From Nostoc sp. CENA543 (GTDB taxonomy: Bacteria; Cyanobacteriota; Cyanobacteriia; Cyanobacteriales; Nostocaceae), in the NCBI RefSeq assembly GCF_002896875.1, contig NZ_CP023278.1, positions 1,674,001 to 1,738,000 on the forward strand: a stretch of DNA of 64,000 nt, read 5' to 3'. A program made the position numbers and the translations under genes. The notes under the pieces are model-generated. The model was not told where the DNA came from, searched no databases, and saw nothing but the letters and a program-made list of their open reading frames with translations. Below, piece after piece: positions 7,931 to 14,356 of this stretch; the stretch's first letter is position 1; each line of letters starts with the position of its first letter.

Positions 7931-9418
7931 TTATGCTGGTTTTAAATGATACTGTTCTTCTAAGAAGTTAAATAGCCAGTCTTTGACGAGGTGGGTGGCG
8001 TGACAGTCGTCTTCATTGTAGCGGCTGATGATTTCCAGTAAAGTGCGATCGCCTGTCTCTAGCCATAGGTCATACCAGTAAATACACTTAGCACCACTAG
8101 CTTCAGGATTACGCCATTCAAATCCTAACCAACGAGCGATCGCTTTTAGGGCGTAACTTTCAATGGGTAATGTTACAGTCTCGGTGAGATATTCATAAAT
8201 ATCGACAAATCGATTTAAGACTGGCTGGACTAACTTATTGGGAGTACGGTATAACTTGGCCAGGCGTTTCACTGTATCTAATTCGTAGACGCAAAAATGA
8301 TAAATCGGTGCATCGGGATATTGCCAGACTAATTCGAGAAATTGTTGCCAAATTAATTCTTCCTGGGCTGGTGTTTCCGCTAACAAAGAATAGAATTCCT
8401 TGGTATTGGTTTGTTTATTCACCACCAACACCCCTAAAAGATAATCTAAATTGATATCTGGTTGGGCTTCAATATCAAAGTACAGTTCTACCGGAGCATT
8501 AAGATCAACGTGGGGATGGGGAAAGGAAAATGGTAAAGTTAGGGGTATTTTTTCTAAAACTGATTGGGCTTGAATGACTAATTTTGTGGCGACTTTGGCA
8601 TCAAAACCCGTAAGATTTTCCAAAAGGCTGGGACTGGTGTTAGCCAGAGAATCTAGAGTAGTGAGATTGAGGCTTTGAAGTTGGGTGTAGCGGATGGGTG
8701 TCACTCCTGGTAGGAGGGAGAGGTGCTGCTGAGATTGGGCGATCGCATGACATTGACTGTGCCACTGACAAAGATTACACTTTTGACGAGCAATAAAGAT
8801 TTCTGGCTCAGTTTGGGACTCTAAAGCCTGGATGAACTCCTGCAAAATTTCCTGCATTTGCGGTGTCCATCGAGATAAATCTATGAAGTATTTTGTTTCC
8901 TTACTGCGTAGCATTAACCAAGCCGTTGACGGTGTGACCCCTTGGACTGTAGCTAACACCTGATTATGAAAAGCGGTGACAACCTGGTATTCCTGTTTGG
9001 GACGCTTACCCAATTCAATATTGACTGCTGTATACATCCACTCACCAAAGCATGATTCTCCTGGTTGCTTCACCAGTAAATCAGGAATACTGAGGAGAGT
9101 AGGATTTAAGGATTCTGACTCTGTGTCTACTAACTGACCGTAATTAGCTAACAGCACTCCTTGATAGATGTAATCAACCCCAAGCTGCATTAATTCTATA
9201 GTGGCCGCTTGTCCGGCTTCCCATTTTCCTCTAGGGTAACTGGGTTTTTGATAGGAAACCCGAGCCAAAATATTCAGCCGATGGGCGTTTTTGTCCTGTT
9301 GTAGTTTCAGCAACAACTCACTAGGCTGATCCCGTAGGCTTCTGTCGCCGTGAATATCTAAAACCGGACGACGTTTACAGCGTTGGTATTGCAGGAGGTG
9401 TTCAGCATTAATTAGCAT
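7931..9418 (-). CDS. TM0106-family RecB-like putative nuclease with RNase H-like C-terminal domain
   Basis: A 495-aa protein of the TM0106-type RecB-like family. The N-terminal third carries a PD-(D/E)xK-like region (WMYTAVNIELGKRPKQEYQ). A Cys set (YQRCKRRP at the start, then CNLCQWHSQC near residue 220) looks like the iron-sulfur cluster ligands seen in Cas4/AddB-type nucleases. A helix-hairpin-helix-like stretch follows (LSLLPGVTPIRYTQLQSL). The C-terminal part is a DEDD exonuclease-like fold (ELYFDIEAQPD at the front, YNEDDCHATHLVKDW at the end). Its substrate is unknown. It stands alone between the zinc group and modBC. The start is ATG 9418, with GGAGGTG upstream. Confidence 0.85.
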   Translation of the reverse strand: MLINAEHLLQYQRCKRRPVLDIHGDRSLRDQPSELLLKLQQDKNAHRLNILARVSYQKPSYPRGKWEAGQAATIELMQLGVDYIYQGVLLANYGQLVDTESESLNPTLLSIPDLLVKQPGESCFGEWMYTAVNIELGKRPKQEYQVVTAFHNQVLATVQGVTPSTAWLMLRSKETKYFIDLSRWTPQMQEILQEFIQALESQTEPEIFIARQKCNLCQWHSQCHAIAQSQQHLSLLPGVTPIRYTQLQSLNLTTLDSLANTSPSLLENLTGFDAKVATKLVIQAQSVLEKIPLTLPFSFPHPHVDLNAPVELYFDIEAQPDINLDYLLGVLVVNKQTNTKEFYSLLAETPAQEELIWQQFLELVWQYPDAPIYHFCVYELDTVKRLAKLYRTPNKLVQPVLNRFVDIYEYLTETVTLPIESYALKAIARWLGFEWRNPEASGAKCIYWYDLWLETGDRTLLEIISRYNEDDCHATHLVKDWLFNFLEEQYHLKPA

Positions 9419-9510: not shown

Positions 9511-9571
9511 GGGGAGACAAGGTAGAATTTATTTCTCAACTCATTACTCATTACTCATTACTCATTACTCA
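9511..9571. repeat. Heptamer array plus unique tail, inverted copy at 12869-12960
   Basis: 'gacaaggtagaatttatttc' followed by tcaac and four tcattac units. The reverse complement of nearly the same block lies at 12869-12960, beyond modBC, rbp and the DUF760 gene. Confidence 0.75.
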
Positions 9572-11389
9572 CCACTGTTCTGGTAACTTTTCCGACAATA
9601 AAATTAGGCTCAATGGCTCTAAACGCACATACCAAGGGAAAGGCTGATCTTTGATGAGTTCCCATTTCTCCTTAAAAACTTCTGCTTGCAGGTGGTAATC
9701 CTGTAAATCATTTACTGGAGAATTTAATTTTAGAAACAGTGTAACGCGATGGGGTGTTTCACTGGTTCTGGCTAACCAGCAAGGAAAAGTATTAGTCGCG
9801 GTTGGGTCTGGAGTAAATTTGAGATGATGGGCGCGAATACCAATATGGGTGATTTCTGTGGGAATTGGTGCAATTATCTGCAACTTACAACCCCAATCAA
9901 CCGCTTCCACTTCCTGGGATGATTGCATAATCACCTGGGAAAAGTTTTTACAGCCAGTGATTTGGGCGACGCTAACAGTAGCAGGACGCTCGAAAATATC
10001 GTATTTAGAACCATGATGCACGACTTGACCATGTTCCATTACCAAGAGATGCGGACAAACGCGGTAAGCTTCTTCCATGTTGTGGGTGACAAATAAAGTC
10101 ACACCTTGATATTGAGCTAAAGTTTCCGTCATTTGCTGTTCTAATTTGTTACGCAGATGTGTATCCAGTGCAGAAAAAGGTTCATCTAAGAGTAAAATCT
10201 CTGGTTGACTGGCTAAGGCTCTGGCTAAGGCGACTCGTTGTTGTTGTCCGCCGGAAAGTTGGTGCGGGTATCGTTCGCCTAATCCCTCTAACTGCATGGC
10301 GATGAGTAATTCTGCAATTTGTTGTCGTTCTTTCCCATTCGGTAGACCTTGCGGTAAACCAAACGCAATGTTTTCTACTACCGTCATATTTGGGAACAAA
10401 GCATAATTCTGCACTAAAAAACCGACTCGGCGATCGCGGCTAGGTAAATTAATTCCCTTTTCAGAATCGAATAAAACCCGACCATTTAAAACTATCCTGC
10501 CTCTAGTGGGTGTTTCAATCCCCGCAATACAGCGCAAAATCATACTTTTGCCTGCACCCGAACCCCCCAACAATCCCAAGGGCTGCTCATCGGTATTAAA
10601 TGTCACCTTAAGGCTAAAACTGGGCAATCGTTTCTCAATATCTACAAACAATTTCACATCCGTCGCCACAGGTGACAAAACAGACATCTCACCTTTTTCT
10701 CTTCCTAGTTGTTTTGTCCCCTGATTTCTCTTATGCCTGACTTCTTGCCAAAAGTTAACCGTAATAATCCCCGACAGGGAAACGATCATAATAGCTATCG
10801 ACCAAAACCAAGCCTCATTCGTTGCACCAGCTTCCACAGCAAAATAAATTGCCATTGGAATCGTCTGAGTTTGCCCAGGAATGTTACCAGCTAACATCAA
10901 AGTAGCACCGAACTCACCCAGCGCGCGGGCAAAAGCTAAAGATGTGGCTGCTAAAATCCCTGGAAACGCTAGGGGTAAACTGATGCGGCGAAAAATTGTC
11001 AATTCGCTTGCGCCCAAAGTTCTCGCTACCTGGAGGAGAGTACCATCAATCTGTTCAAAAGCACCCAGAGCAGTTTTATACATTAAGGGGAAAGAAACAA
11101 CCGTCGCTGCGATCGCTGCCCCATACCAAGTAAACACTACACTGAAATCAAAAGATTGCATCAATTTACCCATAGGGCCATTCGCGCCAAAAAACAACAG
11201 CAACAAAAAGCCCACCACCGTAGGAGGTAAAATCAACGGGGCGACAAATATACCTTCAATCACAGATTTACCCTTGCCCCGATATCCCAACATCCAATAT
11301 GCTGCGGCTATTCCTAAAACAAAGGTGATCAATGTCGCTAGTAACGACGTTTTCAGCGATATCCAAAGAGGTGAAAAATCCGATGGCAT
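9569..11389 (-). CDS. modBC: Molybdate ABC transporter, permease and ATPase fused (ModBC)
   Basis: A single 606-aa chain that combines the inner-membrane channel and ATPase of the molybdate importer. The permease part (about 1-215) has five or so membrane spans and the ATPase-docking loop ARTLGASELTIFRRISLP. The ATPase part (about 240-450) has Walker A GGSGAGKS, the signature LSGGQQQRVALARALA, Walker B ILLLDEPFSALD and the His switch VTHNMEEAY. The last 150 residues form the regulatory tail. The family usually has separate ModB and ModC; the fusion is known in cyanobacteria. The ATG is at 11389. A perfect 32-bp palindrome lies 75 bp upstream. Its partner modA is 2.2 kb away on the other strand. 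Confidence 0.95.
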   Translation of the reverse strand: MPSDFSPLWISLKTSLLATLITFVLGIAAAYWMLGYRGKGKSVIEGIFVAPLILPPTVVGFLLLLFFGANGPMGKLMQSFDFSVVFTWYGAAIAATVVSFPLMYKTALGAFEQIDGTLLQVARTLGASELTIFRRISLPLAFPGILAATSLAFARALGEFGATLMLAGNIPGQTQTIPMAIYFAVEAGATNEAWFWSIAIMIVSLSGIITVNFWQEVRHKRNQGTKQLGREKGEMSVLSPVATDVKLFVDIEKRLPSFSLKVTFNTDEQPLGLLGGSGAGKSMILRCIAGIETPTRGRIVLNGRVLFDSEKGINLPSRDRRVGFLVQNYALFPNMTVVENIAFGLPQGLPNGKERQQIAELLIAMQLEGLGERYPHQLSGGQQQRVALARALASQPEILLLDEPFSALDTHLRNKLEQQMTETLAQYQGVTLFVTHNMEEAYRVCPHLLVMEHGQVVHHGSKYDIFERPATVSVAQITGCKNFSQVIMQSSQEVEAVDWGCKLQIIAPIPTEITHIGIRAHHLKFTPDPTATNTFPCWLARTSETPHRVTLFLKLNSPVNDLQDYHLQAEVFKEKWELIKDQPFPWYVRLEPLSLILLSEKLPEQW

Positions 11390-11463
11390 GATGATTTGCG
11401 GGAAAATTGAATGTGCAACTATTGACTTGATTGCTCTGCTACTTTTATGTGATTACTTAAAAC

Positions 11464-11495
11464 TATACCAACTTTATAATTATAAAGTTGGTATA
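11464..11495 (-). promoter_or_regulatory. Perfect 32-bp palindrome upstream of modBC
   Basis: The sequence reads TATACCAACTTTATAA and then its exact reverse complement. The ends contain the half-sites TACCAAC and GTTGGTA, which also occur (as TACCAA/TTGGTA) in the promoter between the RHH-Mop gene and modA. It is a likely operator. The rest of the 459-bp gap 11390-11848 is AT-rich leader with no recognisable gene and includes the rbp 5' region. Confidence 0.55.
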
Positions 11496-11848
11496 TAATC
11501 ACCAATTATGGCATTAACGCTCAGAGTCTCGCTGTTGAGAGAAAAATATATAGGTTGAATGACCTGAAGAGAAGTTAGCCTGGATAATACATTCTGTCTA
11601 AAATACTACCAACTAAAATATATTTAAGTATAAATAATTACAAAATAGTCCATCGAGCGTTCGTATATTTTTGTAACTTTTTCTCAAGATTTCACACAAT
11701 GAGGAATTATATGTGTTACTATATGCTCTGAGAATTATATTCGGTTATAGTGTTTGTTTTTAGTATTGACAGGCTTTTTCCTTTTGGTATTTGCAGACTC
11801 TCTCCGAAATCTAAATCTCTGCAAACTGATGATTTTGGAGACATATAA

Positions 11849-12154
11849 ATGTCGATTTACGTAGGCAATCTCTCTTACGAAGTTACACAAGATGCCCTCA
11901 CTGCTGTTTTTGCAGAATATGGTGAAGTGAAACGAGTACAAATACCTACTGACCGTGAAACAGGTCGCCCACGAGGCTTTGCCTTTGTAGAAATGAATTC
12001 CGACACACAAGAAGCTGCTGCTATTGATGCCCTTGATGGTGCTGAATGGATGGGTCGTGATTTGAAAGTTAACAAAGCCAGACCCAAAGAAGACAGAGGC
12101 GGTTCATTTGGTGGAAATCGTGGCGGTGGTGGTTACAACCGCAACCGCTACTAA
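11849..12154 (+). CDS. rbp: Glycine-rich RRM RNA-binding protein (cyanobacterial Rbp type)
   Basis: A 101-aa protein with one RNA-recognition motif and a short Gly/Arg/Asn tail (GGNRGGGGYNRNRY). RNP2 is IYVGNL at residues 3-8 and RNP1 is RGFAFVEM near residue 42. Such proteins are cold-inducible RNA chaperones in cyanobacteria; other members help localise thylakoid mRNAs. The ATG at 11849 has GGAG eight bases upstream. A leader of several hundred AT-rich bases precedes it, in keeping with the long 5' UTRs of cold-regulated rbp genes. A hairpin with a T-run follows at 12284. The exact paralogue (A, B, C...) cannot be named from sequence alone. Confidence 0.93.
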   Translation: MSIYVGNLSYEVTQDALTAVFAEYGEVKRVQIPTDRETGRPRGFAFVEMNSDTQEAAAIDALDGAEWMGRDLKVNKARPKEDRGGSFGGNRGGGGYNRNRY

Positions 12155-12283
12155 GACCAATAAGAAGCAGGGGAGAGGAAAGCAGGGAGCAGGGGAGAAA
12201 GCCATCCACAAAGGGTGAGGTTTGTACCTACAGTCACCTTTTCTCTCTGATTCCTACCTCTTAGCGAATAATATCTAGATGAT

Positions 12284-12321
12284 TGAAGGAGATGCGATTT
12301 ATCACATCTCCTTCAGTTTTT
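12284..12321 (+). terminator. Rho-independent terminator after rbp
   Basis: Stem TGAAGGAGATG (12284-12294) pairs with CATCTCCTTCA (12305-12315) and is followed by gtttttcg. It lies 130 bp past the rbp stop codon. Confidence 0.7.
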
Positions 12322-12421
12322 CGCTCACGTCTAATGTGAATTACAGATTTTTTGAAGTAATTGATGTACATCACGAGTAATGAGTGAGGAAATTTACTTA
12401 TTACTCACTATTTATTACTCA

Positions 12422-12754
12422 TTACTTGTCAACACTGGGAGGTAAACAAGCCTTTTCTAACTCCAGTCGTTGCTCTACATTACGCAAGAAATACCCATCT
12501 ACCATTGCAGAGCCTAAAAGTTTACCCAACTCATCGCGACTGGTAGTAATAGTTGTATTGAATTTTCCCCCAGGTAAATTACCCAGAGTCGCTACAATAG
12601 AGCGTTGAATTAACTGAAGTACCTCTGGCGAAGCGGGTTTAGATAATTGGCTAACGGTTTGACTATCCATTGACTGCAAATAATCCCATAACCGATTTTG
12701 ACTCATCACATCAGTTAGAGAATTTTCGGGCTGGCGATGGGAATCATTACTCAT
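12422..12754 (-). CDS. DUF760 family protein
   Basis: A 110-aa protein of the DUF760 type, found in cyanobacteria and plant plastids, function unknown. Recognisable features are LWDYLQSMDSQTVSQLSKP followed by SPEVLQLIQRSIVATLGNLP and the tail DGYFLRNVEQRLELE. It is soluble with no signal peptide. The start is ATG 12754. It is convergent with rbp, and its TAA stop is formed by a taatgag repeat unit. Neighbouring modBC and the RHH-Mop regulator give no clear functional link. Confidence 0.75.
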   Translation of the reverse strand: MSNDSHRQPENSLTDVMSQNRLWDYLQSMDSQTVSQLSKPASPEVLQLIQRSIVATLGNLPGGKFNTTITTSRDELGKLLGSAMVDGYFLRNVEQRLELEKACLPPSVDK

Positions 12755-12868
12755 AGTAATTATCTCAAGTGCTGCTTAACTATCAACTAATTTAGCAATT
12801 TACTTTTACTCACCCAGTGCGCTTAACCGAACTCTGCCATAGGGGTTTTGACACTCATGGGAGTGGGG

Positions 12869-13003
12869 AGTGGTGAGTAATGAGTAATGAGTAATGAGTA
12901 ATGAGTAATGAGTAATGAGTAATGAGTTGAGAAATAAATTCTACTTTGTCTACCTTGTCCCCATGCCCAATGCCCAATGCCCAATGCCCCATACCCCATG
13001 CCC
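12869..13003. repeat. Tandem taatgag array, unique block and 'ccaatgc' array
   Basis: Seven to eight GAGTAAT units (12874-12928) are followed by a block matching 9511-9571 in reverse complement, then repeated 'cccaatg' units (12960-13003) that run into the end of the RHH-Mop gene. Confidence 0.8.
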
Positions 13004-13458
13004 TAATCCCTGGCAATCACAATATCATTAGACTTAATGACCGCATAAGCTTCTGCACCTTCCTCTAGTTCTAATTCTTCAGCTGACATTCTGGTGATGA
13101 TGGAAGTCAGCTCGACTTTGTGGACAATTTCTAGAGTTACTTCGCTATTGACTGCACCTGTCACAACTTTTTTCACCACACCTTTAAGAATATTACGGGA
13201 GCTAACTTTTAGGGGCCTTTTGGGAAGATTAGGTTCTAAATCTAAGTTTTCAGATGTTTGCGTTGCTACTTTATCTACTTTATCTACCCCTTTGGTTGGT
13301 AATGATTTTGCTGCTGGGGGTTGCTGATGAAGACCGCGCACAAGTTCCCGCAGAATCTCAGTTTTAGTGCGCTGAGAATGCTGGCAGAATTCCTCTAGAA
13401 TCTTGCGTTCTTCTTCTGATGTTTGAAAAGTGATCCATCCTTGTTCTTTTCTTGGCAT
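13003..13458 (-). CDS. Ribbon-helix-helix / Mop (TOBE) domain protein, probable molybdate-responsive regulator
   Basis: From ATG 13458 this gives 151 aa. Residues about 5-45 (GWITFQTSEEERKILEEFCQ then HSQRTKTEILRELVRGL) fit a ribbon-helix-helix DNA-binding fold: one strand and two helices. Residues about 85-148 fit the Mop molybdate-binding fold (SSRNILKGVVKKVVTGAVNS then EVTLEI, ending EGAEAYAVIKSNDIVIA). The link between is polar and Pro-rich. Classic ModE uses winged-helix DNA binding, so this is a different build. It is divergent from modA, 100 bp away, with an inverted TACCAA/TTGGTA site just upstream of its start. An upstream TTG start (13515) is possible but would absorb that site. I infer a Mo-dependent repressor; VnfR-type repressors of Anabaena variabilis should be compared. 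Confidence 0.75.
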   Translation of the reverse strand: MPRKEQGWITFQTSEEERKILEEFCQHSQRTKTEILRELVRGLHQQPPAAKSLPTKGVDKVDKVATQTSENLDLEPNLPKRPLKVSSRNILKGVVKKVVTGAVNSEVTLEIVHKVELTSIITRMSAEELELEEGAEAYAVIKSNDIVIARD

Positions 13459-13463
13459 AATGT

Positions 13464-13480
13464 TACCAATTTGGTTGGTA
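13464..13480. promoter_or_regulatory. Candidate operator in the RHH-Mop/modA divergent promoter
   Basis: TACCAA-n5-TTGGTA is an inverted repeat 6 bp upstream of the RHH-Mop start codon and about 80 bp upstream of modA. The same half-sites bound the palindrome upstream of modBC. Confidence 0.5.
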
Positions 13481-13558
13481 AATATCACGGTTATCTTTAA
13501 GTACGATCCGACCAAGCCTCAACTCTTGGAGAAGAATCCATCTCAGCCTGATTTTCCT

Positions 13559-14356
13559 ATGAAACGAAGACAAATTCTTGCTTTTCTTGGTGCGGCGATC
13601 GCTAGTTGTTTGATAGCAGTTGGCTTGCCTTTTATGACACCCTCTCCTGTAGCAGCCCAATCTAATGTCAGTTTACTGGTATCTGCTGCGGCTAGTTTAA
13701 AAGATGCTCTAGAAGAAATTAAACCACTTTATCAAAAGAATAATCCTAATATCAACATCAGTTATAACTTTGGTGCATCTGGTGCGTTGCAGCAACAGAT
13801 TGAACAGGGTGCGCCAGCAGACATTTTCATTTCGGCAGCGAAAAGACAAGTAGATGCTTTAGAACAGAAAGGATTATTACTGCCAGGTACAAGAGCGATC
13901 GTAGCAAAAAATCGCCTAGTCCTAGTTGTGCCGAAGGGAAAAACGGGCATCACTAGCTTTTTAAATTTTAGGAATCCTGAAATTAAGCGTATTGCTATTG
14001 GCGAACCCAGGAGTGTACCCGCAGGTCAGTATGCTGAACAAGTCTTGCAAAAGCTGAAATTATTGCCAGAAATCAAGCCGAAATTAGTATATGCCAACAA
14101 CGTGCGTCAGGTTTTAGCGGTGGTAGAAAGTGGTAACGCTGATGCGGGGTTAGTCTATGCTACTGATGCCAAAATTTCCGACAAAGTAAAAGTTGTAGTG
14201 GCGGCAGATGAAAAATATCACTCAGCAATTACTTATCCCGCCGCAGTTGTGAAAAAGACAAAAAATCCTGATGCAGCGAGGAATTTTGTCACCTTTTTAA
14301 CTACTGATGGCCAAGCAAAAGCTGTATTGAAAAAGTACGGGTTTATTTTGCCTTAG
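13559..14356 (+). CDS. modA: Molybdate ABC transporter periplasmic binding protein
   Basis: Captures molybdate (or tungstate) in the periplasm and passes it to the ModBC channel. The 265-aa product starts at ATG 13559 with a signal peptide, MKRRQILAFLGAAIASCLIA, ending near AAQS; the KRRQ start could be Tat type. Mature features are the ModA oxyanion-site elements VSAAASLKDALEEI, NFGASGALQQQIEQGAPADI and GEPRSVPAGQYAEQ, and the late NADAGLVYATDA. The frame is open further upstream, but that would read through the promoter. The gene is followed at once by a gggtgta repeat array. Confidence 0.95.
   Translation: MKRRQILAFLGAAIASCLIAVGLPFMTPSPVAAQSNVSLLVSAAASLKDALEEIKPLYQKNNPNINISYNFGASGALQQQIEQGAPADIFISAAKRQVDALEQKGLLLPGTRAIVAKNRLVLVVPKGKTGITSFLNFRNPEIKRIAIGEPRSVPAGQYAEQVLQKLKLLPEIKPKLVYANNVRQVLAVVESGNADAGLVYATDAKISDKVKVVVAADEKYHSAITYPAAVVKKTKNPDAARNFVTFLTTDGQAKAVLKKYGFILP

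Follow-up and report, generated by a model that had tools for sequence, protein, structure and literature searches.

A candidate molybdate regulon of a ribbon-helix-helix-like Mop protein and conserved TACCAA/TTGGTA sites in Nostoc sp. CENA543 and related cyanobacteria

The mod locus of Nostoc sp. CENA543 raises the question of whether two inverted repeats, both built from the half-sites TACCAA and TTGGTA, are the operators of a molybdate-sensing regulator that is encoded between them. We analysed a window of 64,000 nucleotides, which is the whole stretch of DNA, together with related genomes. An earlier note on this DNA had proposed a molybdate regulon of sensor, two operators and importer, and this reading is largely supported by comparative genomics. 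We consider it likely that the protein, called RHH-Mop for its ribbon-helix-helix (RHH) and Mop parts, is a ModE analogue that would repress modA, modBC and its own gene when molybdate or tungstate is bound.

The genes had been assigned correctly. The modBC gene (9569 to 11389, minus strand) encodes a fused molybdate permease and ATPase, with BPD_transp_1 and ABC_tran domain matches and 255.7 bits to the modB model TIGR02141 (cut-off 182.6). The modA gene (13559 to 14356, plus strand) encodes the molybdate-binding protein and scores 226.3 bits with TIGR01256 (cut-off 62.5). Divergent from modA is the RHH-Mop gene (13003 to 13458, minus strand), whose product has 151 amino acids and carries a Mop/TOBE domain at residues 86-146. 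RHH-Mop lies between the two sites as the earlier note claimed, but so do two bystanders recognised by domain matches, an RRM RNA-binding protein gene divergent from modBC (11849 to 12154, plus strand) and a DUF760 gene (12422 to 12754, minus strand). On either side of the DUF760 gene, at 12395-12426 and 12875-12930, the heptamer GAGTAAT or its complement is repeated in tandem, and we take these runs to resemble the short tandem repeats of Nostoc.

The protein consists of an RHH-like stretch at residues 1-44, a linker and one Mop domain at residues 83-150. The Mop domain was found above the cut-offs of TIGR00638 (70.5 vs 55 bits) and PF03459 (54.8 vs 22.3), and its nearest relatives in the PDB are ModG, MopII and tungbindin. 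Against the ModE model PRK10676 of NCBIfam the protein reaches 21.9 bits (cut-off 369). The RHH domain is plausible, with weak sequence matches. Pfam RHH_1 matched four of 14 aligned members below threshold (best E 0.0023) and left the window protein itself unmatched; other weak N-terminal matches were to TraY (three of 14) and RHH_9 (one of 14). The AlphaFold2 model, of low confidence (mean pLDDT 60.9), has helices at residues 15-28 and 32-44 and no strand before them. Among the best 50 of 932 Foldseek matches to the whole model, which include Mop-type proteins and OB-like barrels, the N-terminus is unmatched. No DNA-binding helix-turn-helix match was found in Pfam for the window protein at E-values up to 10. 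Residues W8, T10 and Q12 are invariant in all 46 aligned proteins and, by alignment to NikR, would face the DNA. Elsewhere in the genome, a gene for a 70-amino-acid protein with only a Mop domain (C1:111820-112026, within C1:110020-114026) lies among genes that by eye resemble hesA, hesB and ferredoxin genes of a nif-type cluster.

Both sites were found in the window. Site A (11464 to 11495), the putative modBC operator, is confirmed as a perfect 32-bp palindrome with the core TACCAA-N16-TTGGTA at 11466-11493. Its half-sites are two helical turns apart, the middle position between them (TAATTA) is degenerate, and the core is 76 bp from the modBC start codon. Site B (13463 to 13481), TTACCAA-N5-TTGGTAA with its core at 13464-13480, is the putative operator O1 that modA and RHH-Mop would share. 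The distance from this core to the start codon is 5 bp for RHH-Mop and 78 bp for modA. The gap of 5 bp given for Site B is borne out, but the gap of 18 bp given for Site A is wrong, the real one being 16 bp (11472-11487). The difference between the two gaps is thus 11 bp, which makes one helical turn.

TACCAA-N4..20-TTGGTA is found twice in the window; 100 shuffles averaged 0.10, and a single one of them had at least two. Across the entire genome (7.2 Mb) there are 41 matches to TACCAA-N1..24-TTGGTA and 26 to the reversed control. Since such pairs are common, a pair of half-sites alone is not special and conservation had to decide; the weight rests on exact spacing (5 or 16 bp), position and conservation. 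An in-gene repeat at 13285-13301 has two mismatches and is within chance numbers.

With an E-value limit of 1e-20, we scored 93 of 118 genomes as having RHH-Mop. Of 113 genomes with modA, 107 leaders were used, taking the best-matching modA where a genome has several and leaving out G155, G178, G193, G224, G227 and G244. In genomes with RHH-Mop, the inverted pair at gap 5 is present in 78 of 90 modA leaders (250 bp) when one mismatch is allowed and in 51 when none is, and reversed half-sites are found in none of the 90. In genomes without RHH-Mop the pair is found in six of 17 leaders and never exactly. The genomes are related to each other and such occurrences are non-independent events. Of the 56 such leaders (up to 400 bp) from RHH-Mop genomes in which modA and RHH-Mop are not neighbours, 48 still have the N5 site with at most one mismatch, compared to 0.22% of Markov-1 sequences. 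The site is thus associated with modA and, independently, with the regulator gene.

Other gaps also recur in the modA leaders of RHH-Mop genomes. Gap 16 is found in 24 of 90 leaders, and gaps 24, 25 and 26 in 19, 30 and 18 (exact pairs in 16, 17 and 8); the latter pairs are read as O1 paired with O2. In relatives O2 is an everted TTGGTA-N6-TACCAA over the putative -10 of modA. Among 78 anchored leaders, 57 have a TANNAT hexamer that begins 17-20 bp past the TTGGTA of O1, compared to one at a control offset, and this near-fixed offset suggests that TTGGTA of O1 can serve as the -35. By comparison with relatives, the window would have its O2 at 13498 to 13515 as the degenerate everted element TAAGTA-CGATCC-GACCAA, over a putative modA -10, TACGAT, at 13502-13507, with a predicted distance of 21 bp from TTGGTA to the hexamer. 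A simple promoter scan of 13400-13600 found no promoter.

The leaders of RHH-Mop itself were collected from the best 80 of 223 relatives and from 15 loci of the order and family, giving 95 leaders of which 85 are distinct. Exact TACCAA-N5-TTGGTA is found in 12 of these first 15 loci. The remaining three have TACTAA-N5-TTAGTA (L022), a form with two mismatches (L028) and no site (L035). In L022 both half-sites are changed with the spacing kept, and the same genome (G128) has TACCAA sites at modA. Among the 85 distinct leaders, 34 have the exact N5 site and 35 have it with one mismatch; many of the 51 without an exact site belong to orphan paralogues that show other arrangements. None of the 85 has an exact inverted pair at gaps 0-4 or 6-12. 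Allowing one mismatch, pairs were found at gaps 1, 11, 16, 21 and 25 in 4, 14, 14, 16 and 12 leaders, respectively, and the everted TTGGTA-N6-TACCAA is present exactly in 34 and with one mismatch in 56. By linkage, the exact N5 site is found in 12 of 24 named leaders linked to modA and in 14 of 50 others. The N5 site is also kept in other families of the order (L023-L027, L029 and L441, the last exactly) and, with one mismatch, in a locus outside the order (L444). Given the spacing spectra and the reversed and Markov controls, we reject a chance origin of the sites.

Several RHH-Mop loci have a third half-site 11 bp further on. The array TACCAA-N5-TACCAA-N5-TTGGTA has eight matches in 148 whole genomes of the order, seven directly upstream of RHH-Mop and one upstream of modBC, compared to none for the control. 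Some Nostoc genomes have a second RHH-Mop gene away from modA, e.g. NMS8, which has both L062 and L117. These second genes (L056, L072, L090, L117 and similar, upstream of position 8001) have a changed leader with CTTGGTAGAATTTTACCAAG and ACCAAAATTGATAA and other neighbours. Seven loci were viewed, and some RHH-Mop loci without modA nearby have quite different neighbours.

For modBC we scanned 300-bp leaders in genomes of the family at every gap from 0 to 30, using 99 near full-length matches out of 111 genomes with a match. Among the 82 leaders from RHH-Mop genomes, with at most one mismatch, 20 have a pair at gap 16 and 12 have one at gap 5, and each remaining gap is found in at most three. 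Neither gap is present in the 17 genomes without RHH-Mop. A part of the remaining modBC genes are the second gene of a modA-modBC operon, defined by the best modA of the genome lying at most 700 bp upstream on the same strand; operons with a second modA (e.g. G239, G214, G253 and G181) were counted as apart. As a first gene, modBC has a site at gap 5 or 16 in 24 of 51 leaders with RHH-Mop, leaving 27 with no site, and in none of six without RHH-Mop. As a second gene it has a site in five of 31. The earlier note expected such sites upstream of orthologous mod genes, and they do recur, at gaps 5 and 16, at modA, modBC and RHH-Mop, also where these are unlinked.

The longer motif of Site A, TACCAAC-N14-GTTGGTA, has 30 sites in 118 genomes, compared to 11 for the control. 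Nineteen of the 30 adjoin mod genes, among them Site A, which is the sole match in its own genome. The other 11, a number equal to the control, are not by mod genes. They comprise four copies of TACCAACAACCAACTAAGGTTGTTGGTA (G111, G176, G225 and G245) and sites in G165, G178, G199, G210, G229, a small contig of G111 and G194:C77. TACCAACAACCAACTAAGGTTGTTGGTA in these four genomes (L253, L264, L265 and L278, at position 1501) has no mod gene nearby and resembles a hairpin repeat that is dispersed. In G178 (L263, at position 1501) an N16 operator-like site stays beside an RRM gene, with no modBC match within the locus.

Based on these patterns we propose the following mechanism. In place of ModE's winged helix the protein would have an RHH domain, followed by a linker and a single Mop (molbindin) domain. 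Once Mop has bound molybdate or tungstate, each RHH dimer would read one TACCAA half-site. At a spacing of 11 bp (Site B) or 22 bp (Site A), and likewise in the arrays of three with their 11-bp register, the half-sites would align the dimers along the same side of the helix. More than one dimer on the longer site, as suggested earlier, fits the 11-bp register. At modA, the right half of O1 would overlap the -35 and the everted O2 the -10, so that RNA polymerase would be blocked. The position of Site B just before the RHH-Mop start codon would allow autoregulation, and occupancy of Site A would block modBC. At low molybdate the protein would be released and import would rise. Free molbindins assemble as hexamers. 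A more speculative extension, which we favour much less than the regulon itself, is that a Mop hexamer carries three RHH dimers and reads a ladder of TACCAA rungs with an 11-bp pitch, where modA would have two adjacent rungs, modBC the two outer rungs around an empty middle one and some species all three. If so, the number of rungs and their gaps would set the molybdate needed to silence each gene, and transcription from the modA/RHH-Mop promoter would be governed in its two directions by one and the same O1-O2 array.

The sites might instead belong to another factor, e.g. NtcA, and stand beside RHH-Mop by coincidence. Pooling the modA and modBC leaders, a site is present in 84 of 90 genomes with RHH-Mop and in six of 18 without a recognised one (Fisher p about 1e-7, uncorrected for kinship). 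The six (G160, G170, G175, G203, G204 and G205) keep a site with one mismatch, with no exact modA site among them, as another factor would allow. A more sensitive search of these genomes found no full-length RHH-Mop; G203 has an RHH-like stretch of 46 residues, and G160 and G205 have no match to the RHH-Mop protein at E-values up to 0.001. Their sites may be left from recent losses or may be those of another factor. Conversely, six of the 90 genomes with RHH-Mop (G180, G188, G189, G196, G246 and G252) have no site in the modA or modBC leaders examined. A coincidence is hard to reconcile with sites that accompany RHH-Mop and modA separately when the two are unlinked, and with exact sites at unlinked modA genes in 23 of 56 genomes with RHH-Mop compared to none of 17 without. 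Furthermore, GTA-N8-TAC, the NtcA pattern as given in the relevant part of PMC4284476, is absent from 11440-11520 and 13440-13540. We regard another factor as unlikely, though it is the strongest of the competing readings.

Sequence alone does not reveal whether a regulator activates or represses, and RHH-Mop might bind and activate, or bind ligand-free and be released by molybdate. We infer repression by the ligand-bound form from the overlap of the sites with the putative -35 and -10 of modA, which suits a repressor, and from a Mo-transport gene of Anabaena variabilis that is repressed by Mo and W according to the part of PMC4284476 on Mo transport; activation or ligand-free binding appears improbable to us. 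A terminator scan flags Site A on the minus strand, with 14 pairs of which three are G-C (0.1 in shuffles), as would be expected of an intrinsic terminator or RNA hairpin. Relatives keep the ends TACCAAC and GTTGGTA while the 14 bases between them vary and most of the pairing is lost. Moreover, Site A lies 5' of the modBC start codon and has no strong T tract, and the terminator reading is disfavoured to the point of being very improbable.

The regulon of the RHH-Mop repressor looks small. In its own genome, TTACCAA-N5-TTGGTAA with at most one mismatch has eight matches (control three), and the seven besides Site B are all inside ORFs of at least 80 amino acids. An exact 12-base N5 match at C1:4080893 is outside ORFs of at least 90 amino acids with no mod gene near. 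Because the remaining matches are in ORFs or lack a mod gene, the predicted regulon looks confined to modA, RHH-Mop and modBC. As candidates for a wider regulon we viewed the three exact 12-base N5 sites other than Site B (L288, L289 and L290) and the one N16 site other than Site A (L291, C1:4164204). L288 and L290 are inside ORFs, L289 is outside ORFs of at least 90 amino acids and L291 lies between divergent ORFs without the inner AC..GT; by eye, the ORFs shown around these four sites include nothing related to Mo, and they were rejected.

These results offer a sequence code and a candidate architecture by which nitrogen-fixing cyanobacteria may adjust molybdate uptake to Mo, and they predict, for dozens of genomes, that modA, modBC and the regulator gene form one regulon. 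If true, a Mop sensor paired with a different DNA-reading domain would do the job of ModE. Among the open-licence papers listed, no title or abstract opening describes the RHH-Mop build or its operator.

Several known systems can be compared. VnfR1 and VnfR2 of A. variabilis, suggested earlier as comparators, are Mo-dependent repressors in a related cyanobacterium. By description only, they are not close ones, as the part of PMC4284476 on them presents helix-turn-helix proteins acting on vnf genes, and RHH-Mop has no such match. More relevant is the 'modE homolog' of A. variabilis ATCC 29413, which lies just upstream of modA, with modA and modBC 2.7 Mb apart, and is the suspected regulator of Mo transport, where tungstate can replace molybdate in repressing a transport gene (PMC4284476, in its part on these genes, citing Zahalak et al. 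2004 for the gene). It is probably the same gene as RHH-Mop; the part of PMC4284476 that describes it does not mention an RHH domain or an operator.

ModG, MopII and tungbindin are the closest solved relatives of the RHH-Mop C-terminus and, by their chain lengths, consist of Mop only without a DNA-binding part. NikR, the nickel-responsive RHH repressor, joins an RHH to a C-terminal ligand domain, as is proposed for RHH-Mop. Its operator has a 16-bp gap between the hexamers, like the N16 of Site A. The half-sites GTATGA lie at opposite ends of its inverted repeat, as given in the relevant part of PMC4486848. Unlike NikR, RHH-Mop has a Mop C-terminus instead of a nickel domain, its half-sites differ and its putative operators are mostly N5. 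ModE of Escherichia coli, with a winged helix and a di-Mop, is similarly a Mop-type oxyanion sensor with a DNA-binding domain near mod genes. RHH-Mop differs from it by the RHH-like N-terminus, the single Mop and a length of 151 compared to 262-265 amino acids. Repression of molybdate uptake would be expected of both.
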